The notes under the pieces were generated by a model. It ran no database searches, had not been told where the DNA came from, and saw only the letters and a list, made by a program, of their open reading frames with translations. A program made the position numbers and the translations under genes. Of a DNA stretch of 64,000 nt, positions 48,773 to 57,695 are shown piece after piece. Within the stretch, counting starts at the first letter, position 1; the number at the start of each line of letters is the position of its first letter. Source of the stretch: SAR92 clade bacterium H921 (lineage in GTDB: Bacteria > Pseudomonadota > Gammaproteobacteria > Pseudomonadales > Porticoccaceae); contig JAOALD010000002.1 of NCBI GenBank assembly GCA_025153755.1, forward strand, positions 434,001 through 498,000, written 5' to 3'.

Positions 48773-50442
48773 GGTGTCTTTTGATAAACCCGATCGCCAG
48801 CGACCCATGTTTCCAAAACCTGTGTTCGCCACAGCTTTTCAGAGTCAACCTGAAAAATATCCTGATCCAGTAGAATAAAGTCGGCCCATTTACCCGCTGT
48901 CAAGCCGCCGAGCCTAGCCTCTTGGTGCGCAGCCCAGGCAGCATCGATAGTAAAGCTACGCATCACCTCCTCTAAAGTCATCGCCTCCTCGGCAATCCAC
49001 CCAGCGGTAGGCATATTTTCTTGGTTTTGTCGCGTGACAGCGGCATGAATACCGTGGAAGGGATTAGCCAGCTCAATGGGATAGTCTGAGCCAGACACTA
49101 CACGACTACCCTGATCTAGGAAAGAGCGCCACGCATAGGCGCCTTTAATTCGCTCGGGGCCAATTCTATCCTCGGCCATATTCATATCGCTGGTGGCGTG
49201 AGTAGGCTGCATGGACGGGATAACATCGAGAAATTTAAAGCGAGGGATATCTTCTAGATGGACAATCTGAGAATGCTCAATACGGTGGCGCAGGTGACGT
49301 CCACCAACGGTACCATAGGCATATTCAACTTCATCCAGAGCAATACGATTACCTTTGTCGCCAATGGCGTGTATAGCTACTTGGAAGTCCGCGGCGATAG
49401 ATTTTTTAAACAGATCGCGCAGCTGATCTGTGCTAGTGACTAGCAATCCGCTGTGATCTGTTCGATCAGTATAGGGAGCAAGCATGGCTGCACCGCGGCT
49501 TCCCAAGGCCCCGTCGACATAGACCTTGATACTGCGCATGCTATAAAGATCCAGATTATCAACGCTGTGTCCCGCGTCTAATGTCTGAGCAATATCGACA
49601 TTGGTAGAGGAGATCATGCCATAGATACGTACGCGCATGTCACCGCTGTCAGCTATCTGCCGGTACAGCCTATGTTCAGCTGAGCTTACTCCGGCATCAT
49701 GGGTGGAGGTAATACCCAGACTCAATAGATGCTGGCTCACAGTCTCCAAGGCCAAAATGATTTCATCATCATTAGGTGCTGGAATCACTCTAGTTACCAA
49801 ATTCATAGCATTATCGATCAGTACTCCAGTCGGCTGGCCATTGCTATGCCGAATAATTTCACCGCCAGGAGGCGAGACTGTCTCCCCTGTTATGCCTGCA
49901 AGCGCCAGAGCTTTGCTATTTGCCCAGCCGGCATGGCCATCAATTCGCTCCAACCACACAGGACGATCATTGATTTGCGCATCGAGAATTGCGGCGCTTG
50001 GATATTGCTGGTCTGGCCAGAGGACTTGATTCCAGCCACGTCCTTGAATCCAGTTTAGTGTGGGTTTTTCCGCGGCATAAGCAGCTACTTCCTCGGCTGC
50101 GGCCTGAGCTGATTTACGACCCCGAACATCCAGGCTCAGCAAGGTATAGCCCAGCGACGAAACATGGCCATGAGCATCGGTAATACCCGGAATTAATGTT
50201 TTACCCTGACCATTAATTTTTTCTGCATTGGGATAGCCTAGGGCAAGTGTTGCGTCACCTGTGGCCAAGACTTTACCGTCTTGGAGGGCCAGTGTTTGGA
50301 ACCGTTGTAATTGGCGGTCATTGTCAAAGGTATATCCATTGATATTTTCGATAACCAGCCCGTTTGTTTCGTGCTGCTGTGAGCAGGCGCTCAAAAAAAT
50401 GGTCGCTGTAATAATGATGGCGAGCCAGACGAATTTTGCCAT
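48769..50442 (-). CDS. Amidohydrolase-superfamily lipoprotein (YtcJ-like)
   Basis: 557 residues. A lipoprotein signal (about 1-20, IIITATIFLSAC) targets it to the cell envelope. The metal-dependent amidohydrolase fold has the HxH motif in ITDAHGHVSSLG, later FQVAIHAIGDKGNRIALDE and HRIEHSQIVH, and Asp in VVSGSDYPIELANP. These are the features of YtcJ-type exoenzyme-like hydrolases, whose substrates are mostly unknown. It lies convergent with the monooxygenase, overlapping by the shared CTAG, and divergent from ilvI. Confidence 0.83.
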   Translation of the reverse strand: MAKFVWLAIIITATIFLSACSQQHETNGLVIENINGYTFDNDRQLQRFQTLALQDGKVLATGDATLALGYPNAEKINGQGKTLIPGITDAHGHVSSLGYTLLSLDVRGRKSAQAAAEEVAAYAAEKPTLNWIQGRGWNQVLWPDQQYPSAAILDAQINDRPVWLERIDGHAGWANSKALALAGITGETVSPPGGEIIRHSNGQPTGVLIDNAMNLVTRVIPAPNDDEIILALETVSQHLLSLGITSTHDAGVSSAEHRLYRQIADSGDMRVRIYGMISSTNVDIAQTLDAGHSVDNLDLYSMRSIKVYVDGALGSRGAAMLAPYTDRTDHSGLLVTSTDQLRDLFKKSIAADFQVAIHAIGDKGNRIALDEVEYAYGTVGGRHLRHRIEHSQIVHLEDIPRFKFLDVIPSMQPTHATSDMNMAEDRIGPERIKGAYAWRSFLDQGSRVVSGSDYPIELANPFHGIHAAVTRQNQENMPTAGWIAEEAMTLEEVMRSFTIDAAWAAHQEARLGGLTAGKWADFILLDQDIFQVDSEKLWRTQVLETWVAGDRVYQKTP

Positions 50443-50566
50443 TTGAGTAAACTCTCATTGATTGTTGTTTTTATATTACGCTAAAGCTGTAGCCTAAGTG
50501 TGTCTTATATCGATTGGTGGCGCGAGTTGTGCCTTGGCGGACATGTTGGAGGCATTGATTTTCTCG

Positions 50567-50594
50567 TTGACTAATCAGTGAAAAGTGGTACATT
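50567..50594 (+). promoter_or_regulatory. Candidate sigma-70 promoter of ilvIHC
   Basis: TTGACT (50567-50572) and TACATT (50589-50594) are separated by 16 bases and match the consensus at five and four positions. Transcription would start near 50601, leaving a leader of about 225 nt. Confidence 0.5.
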
Positions 50595-50600
50595 ACGCGC

Positions 50601-50825
50601 TTCTGTGCCTACCAGTACAGAAATTTTTTGGACAAAGTATCAGTTGGGCGTTATCCACGTCGCTGGTGATCACAAGAGAAGGCACAGGAATCCACAGTGC
50701 CAGCTACAGTCAAATAAACACTTATCGGTGTGACTGGAATCTACCGCAAGCGCGGTGTCGCTTCTGATGTATTAGCAAACAGCCACTGAGAAAAGTCCTT
50801 ATCATAATGAACATGAGGACATGTT
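50601..50825 (+). promoter_or_regulatory. Structured ilvI mRNA leader with alternative hairpins around the ribosome binding site
   Basis: An 8-bp hairpin followed by six Ts lies at 50601-50629, and further short stems at 50681-50701 and 50743-50756. Just before the GTG start, GUCCUUAU (50795-50802) can pair with AUGAGGAC (50813-50820) and hide the AGGA site. The competing hairpin AACATG/CATGTT (50810-50825) instead shows AGGA as its loop. The two exclude each other. No Ile/Val/Leu-rich leader peptide was found. Confidence 0.5.
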
Positions 50826-54137: not shown

Positions 54138-54169
54138 TAAAACGGCTCGCTCTCAGGTGGGCCGTTTTA
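54138..54169 (+). terminator. Probable terminator after ilvC
   Basis: TAAAACGGCTC (54138-54148) pairs with GGGCCGTTTTA (54159-54169) in an 11-bp stem with one wobble. The T-run is only four bases, so termination may be partial. Confidence 0.7.
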
Positions 54170-54228
54170 GTATGTGTCACGTAAAAAATCAGTTTAAACG
54201 CAGCCTAACAATTTGGAACATAGAGCAG

Positions 54229-55017
54229 ATGAGCAGAGCAAATAGCAGGACCCGTGTCGTTACCTTAGATGGCGGTATTAATTTTCGCGACATCGGTGGA
54301 TACGTTAATGATCAGGGTCGCAGCGTTAAATGGCGCAAGATTATGCGCTGCGGGCATCTGGCTAATCTCACAGACAATGATCTCGACAGTCTCGAGCAAA
54401 TTGGTATCAATAGAATCCATGATTTTCGCCGCACCGAGGAACAGGAGCAATCGCCAAGCCGCGCTGTGCGAGCTGAATTTATTGACGACTATCAAATTTC
54501 CATAGGAGATATCTCAAGATTTTGGGAGTTTTTATTTGGTGGCGAGCTGACTGCAGAATCTTCCCATACACTGGTGGTCAATTCCTATCGCAACTGTATT
54601 GAATCAGTAATTCCTGCTTTTAGTCGTTTTATGCGTCATATTGTTGATAATGCTGATAACGCCTCGGTATTTCATTGCTCTGCGGGTAAAGACCGTACAG
54701 GTATGGCGGCGGCACTTATCCTGTCGGCGCTGGATGTACCTCGCCAGACTATCATTGAGGACTATATGTTGACACTGCAACACTATGACTCTGAAAAGTT
54801 GATTGACTTGGTAGAAGGGCACCTGCGAGATGCCAAGGTAGAAAGTTGGGATCGAAACTGGTTAGTACCCTATTGCTCTGTTCATCAGGATAATATTGTC
54901 GCCTTTCTTGACGCTATTGACAGCGAATATGGCAATGTAAGAAATTACCTTATAACTGCGCTGGGCTTATCTCAGGCGGATTTGGATAAAATGCATAGCT
55001 GTTATTTAGAAGACTAG
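54229..55017 (+). CDS. Tyrosine-phosphatase-like protein (Y_phosphatase3 type)
   Basis: 262 residues from ATG 54229, giving MSRANSRTRVVTLDGGINFRD, the usual start for this family; the longer frame from 54157 begins inside the terminator. The phosphatase loop C-x5-R is HCSAGKDRTGMAAALIL, and NFRDIGGY near the start is the other family mark. Family members remove phosphate from tyrosine, serine or phosphoinositides. No signal peptide is seen. The role beside ilvC and pssA is unclear. Confidence 0.82.
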   Translation: MSRANSRTRVVTLDGGINFRDIGGYVNDQGRSVKWRKIMRCGHLANLTDNDLDSLEQIGINRIHDFRRTEEQEQSPSRAVRAEFIDDYQISIGDISRFWEFLFGGELTAESSHTLVVNSYRNCIESVIPAFSRFMRHIVDNADNASVFHCSAGKDRTGMAAALILSALDVPRQTIIEDYMLTLQHYDSEKLIDLVEGHLRDAKVESWDRNWLVPYCSVHQDNIVAFLDAIDSEYGNVRNYLITALGLSQADLDKMHSCYLED

Positions 55018-55855: not shown

Positions 55856-55898
55856 TTTAGACTTGGCATGTGCGAAAAAAACTGGTTGAATACTATCC

Positions 55899-55985
55899 AT
55901 GAGTAACGCGGCCCACATTTTTCCTGCAAACAACAGTTTAGCGACTGTTGCGTCTGCACGCGGACTACTTCTTCTCCTGCCCTGA
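55899..55985 (+). CDS. leuA leader peptide with five consecutive Leu codons
   Basis: A 28-codon frame from ATG 55899 to TGA 55983-55985. It begins MSNAAHIFPAN and ends ARGLLLLLP, the leucines being encoded CTA CTT CTT CTC CTG at 55965-55979. Five Leu codons in a row just before the stop, 150 bp upstream of leuA, is the mark of transcription attenuation, as in the enteric leu operon. No strong ribosome binding site is visible, only AAAAAACTGG upstream. Confidence 0.8.
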   Translation: MSNAAHIFPANNSLATVASARGLLLLLP

Positions 55986-56063
55986 GGGGCATCTATAGTT
56001 ATTTCTCATCCAAAATTTTCGTTTATTGCCTTAGTTGCAATAAAATTGTAGCCCCACAGGGGG
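55978..56063 (+). promoter_or_regulatory. Candidate leuA attenuator with mutually exclusive pairings
   Basis: Three pairings compete: TGCCC (55978-55982) with GGGCA (55987-55991); GGGGC (55986-55990) with GCCCC (56051-56055); and CCCC (56052-56055) with GGGG (56059-56062). This is the 1:2, 2:3, 3:4 layout of attenuators, with the last Leu codon inside arm 1. The 3:4 hairpin has only TTTT about ten bases later, so it is a weak terminator by sequence. A separate 8-bp stem lies at 56022-56044. Confidence 0.5.
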
Positions 56064-56135
56064 TGAATCCGTTTTACAATGTAGTCAGTTACCTAAGCGC
56101 TTAAAATGCGCCTGGCTCCAATCAGGAAGAAAAAT

Positions 56136-57695
56136 ATGAAGAGCACAGAGCAGTCGAAAGAGAAATTAGTCATTTTTGATACCACATTGCGCGATGGCGA
56201 ACAGAGTCCCGGCGCATCCATGACCAAAGATGAGAAAGTGCGCATTGCCAAAGCTTTGGAAAAAATGCGTGTCGATGTTATTGAAGCTGGTTTTGCCATC
56301 TCTAGTCAGGGTGACTTTGAAGCTGTACAGGCCATAGCCAACACTGTAACCGAGAGCCGTATTTGTAGCCTATCAAGGGCCATGGTTGCGGATATCGAAC
56401 GTGCCGGAGAGGCTCTTAAAGGTGCAAATGCTGGTCGTATTCACACCTTTATCGCCACCTCGCCGATCCATATGAAGCACAAGTTGCAGATGGAGCCAAA
56501 TGAGGTTCTTGAGCAGGCCGTGGGTGCGGTCAAAATAGCCCGTAGCCTAATTGATGATGTTGAGTTTTCCCTGGAAGATGCCAGTCGTACCGAATTTGAT
56601 TTTATGTGTCGGATCACCGAGGCAGTCATCGATGCAGGTGCGCGAACTATCAACCTACCAGATACCGTGGGCTATTCTGCGCCAGGTGAATATGGAGCGA
56701 TGATTGAGCGCCTTTTAAATACGGTACCCAATGCGGATAAAGCAATCTTTTCGGTACATTGTCATAATGATTTAGGTTTGGCGGTGGCAAATAGTCTCTC
56801 TGCTGTTCAGGCTGGTGCTCGACAAGTTGAGTGTACAATCAATGGTCTAGGTGAACGGGCGGGTAATGCCTCATTGGAAGAAATAGTGATGGCGATCCGC
56901 ACGCGCAAGGATCTTTTTCCTGTGGCAACGGACATCGATGCTGTGCATATAGTGCCAACTTCGCGTCTGGTCTCAAGTATTACTGGCTTCCCGGTACAGC
57001 CAAACAAGGCTATTGTGGGGGCTAATGCCTTTGCCCATGAGTCAGGTATCCACCAAGATGGTATTTTAAAATTTCGTGAGACCTACGAAATCATGAAGGC
57101 TGAGGATGTTGGTTGGAGTAACAATAAGCTGTCTTTGGGCAAATTGTCCGGCCGAGCAGCCTTTGCCGCTCGCCTTGAAGAACTAGGTATTGTCTTTGAT
57201 GGCAAAGAAGATTTTAACCAGGCTTTTATACGTTTTAAGGAATTAGCTGACAAGAAGCGTGAAATCTTTGATGAAGATTTACAGGCGCTAGTTTCCGATG
57301 TGCAGATGGGCACCGAAGATGACGTGTTGACCGTGATTGATCTTGAGGTGTTGTCAAAATCTGGTCAGGCACCTCATGCTAAGATTATAGTTAAGTATCA
57401 GGATCAGGAGCACAGCTCTGAATCCAGTGGTGACGGCGCAGTCGATGCAATATTTAATGCGATTGAAAAGCTAGTTAACTCTGAGACCAGGCTACAGCTA
57501 TATTCAGTCAATGCCGTTACTCAGGGTACAGATTCCCAAGGTGAGGTTACGGTGCGATTAGAAAAAGATGGCCGAATTATCAATGGGCAGGGTGCAGACA
57601 CAGATATACTTTTAGCCAGTGCCAAGGCCTATTTGAATGCGCTGACCCTAATGCGTAATCCTGGGCGGTTACACCCGCAGCTTGGCGGTGTTTAG
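56136..57695 (+). CDS. leuA: 2-isopropylmalate synthase
   Basis: 519 residues from ATG 56136, chosen over ATG 56106 because AGGAAG lies 7 bases upstream. The TIM barrel starts [17 protein letters not shown], with the metal ligands in [16 protein letters not shown] and the [14 protein letters not shown] motif. The C-terminal 130 residues are the leucine-sensing regulatory domain ([19 protein letters not shown]). It condenses acetyl-CoA and 2-oxoisovalerate, the first committed leucine step. A leader peptide and attenuator precede it; the next gene starts at its stop (TAGTG). Confidence 0.95.

Follow-up and report, generated by a model that had tools for sequence, protein, structure and literature searches.

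The 64,000-nt stretch of the SAR92 clade bacterium H921 genome analysed here (the window) carries a short leucine-rich reading frame before leuA. Its presence raises the question of whether leuA is controlled through this frame and, if so, whether control follows the terminator switch known from enteric leu operons or a different route.

Leader ORF and gene context

A preliminary description placed a 28-codon frame with five consecutive Leu codons upstream of a lone leuA, and its coordinates proved exact in the window sequence. The frame begins with an ATG at 55899, ends with the TGA at 55983-55985 and lies 150 nt before the leuA ATG at 56136. Its 3' codons are GGA CTA CTT CTT CTC CTG CCC TGA and the peptide ends in ARGLLLLLP* (asterisks mark stop codons); the other features of the region are listed in Table 1. 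leuA does stand alone, as the upstream gene order is ilvB-ilvH-ilvC, a phosphatase-like ORF, pssA and the leader, and the 258-aa ORF 3' of leuA is unrelated. The nearest named relatives of the window's LeuA come from SAR92/Porticoccaceae genomes, and the core of the leader element occurs only once in the genome. Upstream of ilvB (50826; region 50400-50825), in contrast to leuA, no Leu-, Ile- or Val-rich leader peptide ORF was seen. The ORF between ilvC and pssA (54157-55017, + strand) contains the motif HCSAGKDRTG, which is typical of protein tyrosine phosphatases.

The Leu codons had also been described as all different and hence as sensing several tRNA-Leu species, but CTT is used twice. Because CTT and CTC are normally decoded by one tRNA, fewer tRNA-Leu species would be sensed than was supposed.

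Table 1. Features of the leuA leader region in the window
Feature	Position	Strand	Notes
-35 box TTGGCA of the leader promoter	55863..55868	+	Separated from the -10 box by 17 nt; seen again in relatives and class-wide; assigned by motif
-10 box TTGAAT	55886..55891	+	Ends 7 nt before the leader ATG; relatives have TTAAAT or TATAGT/TATATT; predicted leaderless start
Leader peptide ORF, MSNAAHIFPANNSLATVASARGLLLLLP*	55899..55985	+	28 aa; in-genus indels all multiples of three
Leu control codons CTA CTT CTT CTC CTG	55965..55979	+	Position-specific synonymous conservation in SAR92
Hairpin H1, UGCCC[UGAG]GGGCA ("1:2")	55978..55991	+	Abuts the Leu codons; loop holds the stop codon; compensated stem changes, model R1
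Pyrimidine-rich, G-poor linker, consensus AUCUAUCGUUAUACCUCAUCC	55992..56012	+	Near-invariant in the SAR92 alignment; possible Rho site
Spacer hairpin M (UUUAUUGC/GCAAUAAA)	56022..56044	+	Present in relatives with other stem sequences
Hairpin GCCCC/GGGGU ("3:4")	56051..56064	+	Occupies the place of the candidate H2 pseudoknot of other lineages; no U-tract after it
Conserved block UUUUACAAU	56072..56080	+	SAR92 only; sole exact copy in the window
Hairpin P5 (AGUCAG/CUGGCU)	56083..56117	+	Just before the leuA Shine-Dalgarno sequence; other stem sequences in relatives
leuA Shine-Dalgarno sequence AGGAAG	56124..56129	+	Able to pair with the Leu codons
leuA, 2-isopropylmalate synthase, regulated gene	56136..57695	+	

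Conservation in the genus and across the class

Upstream sequence could be read at 28 further loci of the genus, and every one of them retains the ORF end, hairpin H1 and the block TGCCCTGAGGGGC. Variants within the genus include RLP instead of LLP in one locus and TAA instead of TGA in two. Leader length in the genus alignment changes by steps of three, as expected for a translated frame, and CTC occupies codon -2 in 26 of 31 cases in SAR92 versus 11% of the Leu codons in the window's genes. In five SAR92 relatives (L018, L019, L026, L028 and L031) the Leu run is down to one to three Leu (VVRLLP*, ARLLP*, CRLP*) and H1 is kept.

Beyond the genus, Porticoccus, Microbulbifer, Methylomonas, Motiliproteus, Sedimenticola and others have leaders whose ends read LLP*, LRLLP* or LRLP followed by several more codons. 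From a class sample of 151 genomes, upstream regions were taken from the 104 in which leuA was found at the threshold used. A Leu run with a hairpin precedes leuA in roughly 40% of the sampled loci (40 of about 90 readable ones); in these 40 the last Leu codon of the Leu-rich ORF directly abuts H1, and further loci are close variants.

We also searched 369 whole Gammaproteobacterial genomes, blind to the position of leuA, with a 48-nt covariance model of the Leu codons, H1 and linker (model R1). The best hits lay directly before leuA and had a Leu-rich ORF in 7 of 7 cases (the window itself included), as did most other strong hits, and hits located elsewhere lacked a Leu-rich leader. R1 did not match E. 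coli leuL; the window leader had no match in Rfam, and the leader peptides had none in Pfam or NCBIfam. Genus-level nucleotide conservation and the blind class-wide search together indicate that the leader ORF is not a product of chance, and the Leu-rich mini-ORF that the preliminary description expected before leuA in relatives is present across both genus and class. The element apparently represents a genuine, conserved class-wide variant of leader-peptide control of leuA, one that appears undescribed in the open-access literature.

A hairpin around the stop codon

The pairing earlier designated 1:2 corresponds to H1 and is strongly supported by compensated stem changes. Across the class the stems vary among TGCCC/GGGCA, CTGCC/GGCAG, TGCCGC/GCGGCA, TTGCCC/GGGCAA and ATTATTGCC/GGCAATAAT, and the loop mostly contains the stop codon (UGAG, GUAA, UGAC, CUAG). 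In Microbulbifer and others the frame continues for a few more codons, and therefore the hairpin, not the stop codon, is the constant part. On sequence comparison, H1, wrapped around the stop codon, is the conserved core of the element.

Four leaders (L213, L220, L232 and L233) end in LLLRR*, LLLR*, CCLR* or LLLLRQPAR* and have CGC-type sequence after the last Leu codons. In L213, with the leader ending LLLRR*, the stem UGCGCC/GGCGCA stands in place of UGCCC/GGGCA, which suggests that the hairpin rather than the proline is conserved.

A probable leaderless start

Sigma-70 promoters were scored around each leader ATG, with expectations obtained from shuffles. In 21 of the 37 held-out loci the top-scoring promoter had its -10 box 5-9 nt before the leader start, against 1.45 expected, and in 18 of these the distance was 6 or 7 nt; the discovery set gave 22 of 52 loci against 2.75 expected. 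Among the held-out loci, a Shine-Dalgarno-like site precedes only 1 of 37 leaders versus 33 of 37 leuA genes, and no Shine-Dalgarno sequence stands before the leader ATG of the window. Because the -10 boxes lie 6-8 nt before the ATG and the leader lacks a Shine-Dalgarno sequence, we infer on statistically strong grounds that the leader is probably translated as a leaderless mRNA.

The region between H1 and leuA

The overall fold of the window leader region, which the preliminary description had proposed as a check, is only modestly better than that of shuffles (z -1.9 and -2.5). With the MAFFT alignment A2, RNAalifold retained only 6 pairs, none of them covarying. Because the variable hairpins are misaligned in A2, hairpins M, 3:4 and P5 were read from folds of the individual sequences and not from formal covariation counts.

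The same description had recognised here the design of the enteric leu operons, with arms pairing 1:2, 2:3 and 3:4 exclusively. Under such classical transcription attenuation, a stalled ribosome would lead to the 2:3 pairing (GGGGC:GCCCC), and otherwise the 3:4 hairpin (GCCCC/GGGGU) would terminate transcription near 56065-56080. Both pairings are possible in the window, the CCCC of the left arm hardly changes, though the right arm varies, and a UUUU lies about 8-11 nt past the 3:4 hairpin. By footprint reasoning, GGGGC would be free if the ribosome stalled at the first Leu codons and covered if it stood at the stop codon. However, 3:4 lacks a directly following U-tract, and terminator scans of the window found no site downstream of the leader. 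Terminator-like sites across loci are commoner than in shuffles (10 versus 1.9, 13 versus 1.4 and 7 versus 1.1), but many of them consist of H1 and the U-rich sequence after it, a combination that might pause the polymerase. The GCCCC hairpin, and with it segment 3, is missing in eight relatives (L020-L024, L027, L029 and L030) that keep the leader, H1 and the linker, so the 2:3/3:4 switch cannot be the conserved core; by inspection, complementarity between the H1 and H2 arms is not kept class-wide either.

The Rfam Leu_leader model RF00512 gave 145.8 bits with the E. coli control and no hit in the window at the gathering threshold or at E<=5. Like E. coli leuL, the window leader has 28 codons, consecutive Leu codons and a place upstream of leuA; unlike it, it has neither a terminator nor a leader Shine-Dalgarno sequence, and its Leu codons run directly up to a hairpin with the stop codon inside. 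We regard classical attenuation as unlikely. Of the earlier proposal, control of leuA through a Leu-codon leader is retained while the terminator switch is not, and of the exclusive pairings 1:2 stands firmly, whereas 2:3 and 3:4 are possible in the window and unconserved in the eight relatives. The leaderless start, the spread through the class and the possible pairing of the Leu codons with the leuA Shine-Dalgarno sequence go beyond that proposal.

Alternatively, the linker behind H1 might load Rho after leader termination, so that polymerase is stopped before leuA, with a stalled ribosome or an induced structure masking the site. The linker is near-invariant even in relatives without 3:4, and C-rich stretches follow H1 in many other lineages. 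Pyrimidine richness is, however, no proof of a rut site, and in some lineages (L082) leuA starts only about 62-77 nt past the stop codon, which leaves little room; this Rho-dependent route seems to us quite improbable. It is very improbable that H1 and the downstream structure serve to bind a protein or another ligand, with the leader peptide incidental or serving only to open the structure, since the conserved Leu-rich ORF, its frame and the leaderless promoter would be needless for a pure ligand site. In favour of this reading, H1, and H2 in other lineages, are strongly conserved, and something similar has been proposed for the LEU element of actinobacteria (PMC1262725).

Two further candidates in this region were set aside. 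The block UUUUACAAU (UUCUACAAU in group-2 relatives) hardly varies upstream of leuA in SAR92 and adjoins the 5' side of a variable hairpin, so that an RNA element or a second -10 box came into question. Its reading as a -10 box or as the tail of a terminator was rejected, as group-2 relatives have no directly preceding hairpin and the main group has no -35 box. A pairing AUUGUA:UACAAU around the GCCCC hairpin was discarded on inspection of the alignment, in which AUU[CG]U varies and UACAAU is constant.

Possible pairing of the Leu codons with the leuA Shine-Dalgarno sequence

When the free leader is folded, its Leu-codon run is often paired with the leuA Shine-Dalgarno sequence, as in TTCCTTCTCC with GGAGAAGGAA (L020), TGCTATTCCT with AGGAAUAGCA (L140), CTACTCC with GGAGUAG (L046, L097) and CCTGCT with AGCAGG (L108). 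First permutation tests of this pairing were confounded by genome base composition, and composition-corrected and synonymous-codon versions were then run. After correction, own Shine-Dalgarno partners did better than swapped ones, at 17/10000 in the discovery set with controls null, although tests in this set are not fully independent of the pairing idea because the idea arose from inspecting folds, and 1/10000 over all 90 loci. In the held-out set control pairings also beat swapped ones (25 to 240 of 10000), so the pairing is non-specific there. Synonymous Leu-codon choice favours the locus's own Shine-Dalgarno sequence (z -2.83, n=89; control regions -1.5 to 0.2).

In the held-out loci, the predicted accessibility of the Shine-Dalgarno sequence rose when the Leu codons were covered by a ribosome (16 up, 1 down, p=0.003 versus an early ribosome), and the effect was weaker in the discovery set (p=0.06). 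In the window, early and stalled ribosomes raise it equally (0.63 each) and the pairing of the Leu run with the Shine-Dalgarno sequence is modest, at 2.6 expected pairs; L021, L053, L091, L104 and L120 show little of it. Together, these results provide moderate evidence that the pairing holds for at least a subset of lineages.

A candidate pseudoknot and comparison with described leaders

In about 26 other Gammaproteobacteria (L148, L154, L160, L167, L176, L178, L185, L198, L209, L223, L082, L083, L097, L119, L159 and others), H1 is followed by a second element, a hairpin with the loop UGGCGA and a downstream ACGC, which is a candidate H-type pseudoknot. It takes the form NCC-UGGCGA-GGN, then ACGC/ACGU 2-7 nt later, about 55-150 nt before leuA. 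In L119 and L159 the loop reads UGACGA and the partner ACGU, a compensatory change of both candidate strands. An Rfam search with the candidate gave no match, and it is absent from the window and SAR92.

Among described systems, the window comes closest, judged by description, to the LEU element of actinobacteria (Seliverstov et al. 2005, PMC1262725; PMC8079986). In actinobacterial leuA leaders the Leu-codon run pairs with the leuA Shine-Dalgarno sequence, a pseudoknot is present and there is no terminator (PMC1262725). The S. lividans leuA leader (LeuL1) is leaderless and likewise lacks a terminator (PMC8079986), and in S. coelicolor the reported effect of mutating leader codons was not that of classical attenuation (PMC1262725). 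The window shares the Leu-run leader before leuA, the predicted leaderless start (as in S. lividans) and the lack of an intrinsic terminator. Its Leu run may also pair with the leuA Shine-Dalgarno sequence, a pairing that is supported over all loci and modest in the window. The internal pseudoknot has its counterpart in the candidate of other Gammaproteobacteria, not in the window, and because it is absent from the window and SAR92 we do not file the window as a member of the LEU element. The window also differs in phylum, in a peptide that ends LLP* and in having its stop codon within H1.

Other leuA leaders have been described as transcription attenuators. The Shewanella leader resembles that of the window in being a Leu-rich ORF before leuA (PMC2659441). 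Campylobacter LeuL, which was identified by its ribosome-binding site, likewise lies before leuA, is 28 aa long with a terminal group of 5 Leu codons, and has its translation backed by Ribo-seq (PMC3847290, PMC11955535). LeuA rises 4.2-fold in P. putida when the tRNA pseudouridine synthase TruA is lost (PMC7822408), as attenuation control, if it operates there through such a leader, would predict.

Proposed mechanism

Leucine sensing by stalling of ribosomes on the leader peptide is, in our judgement, very likely. That the output lies at leuA translation initiation rather than at a terminator has about even odds, which still makes it likelier than a classical terminator. The reading as a whole, in which stalling at the Leu codons governs leuA and probably does so by exposing the ribosome-binding site of that gene, we hold to be somewhat favoured.

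Given a promoter just 3' of pssA, transcription would start within a base or two of the leader ATG, and the 28-codon leader would be read as a leaderless mRNA. Ribosomes would then reach the five Leu codons that adjoin H1, with the stop codon in its loop. When Leu-tRNA is ample, the ribosome would terminate at the stop codon and depart, H1 and the spacer hairpins would form, and the free Leu-codon run may pair with the leuA Shine-Dalgarno sequence and keep leuA expression low. When Leu-tRNA is scarce, a ribosome parked on the Leu codons would leave the leuA ribosome-binding site free, and LeuA would be made. Translational attenuators of the ermC/cat type also use a stalled leader ribosome to free a sequestered downstream Shine-Dalgarno sequence, in response to a drug. 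Here, in contrast, the signal would be uncharged tRNA-Leu and the sequestering strand would be the control codons themselves.

More tentatively, and with odds somewhat below even, these leaders may constitute a class-wide "LEU element" that acts by translational attenuation in parallel to the actinobacterial one. It would comprise a leaderless leader, Leu codons that serve both as tRNA sensor and as leuA anti-Shine-Dalgarno sequence, a stop-codon hairpin as cap and, in many lineages, the H-type pseudoknot (NCC-UGGCGA-GGN..ACGC).

Leucine control in Gammaproteobacteria is usually discussed through the transcription attenuator of E. coli, from which the element described here differs. If its Leu codons are also the anti-Shine-Dalgarno sequence, then sensor and switch are the same bases, and Gammaproteobacteria that are easy to grow could be used to test how the actinobacterial LEU element works, for which classical attenuation was a poor fit. 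A class-wide leaderless start would provide a natural set for studies of leaderless translation.
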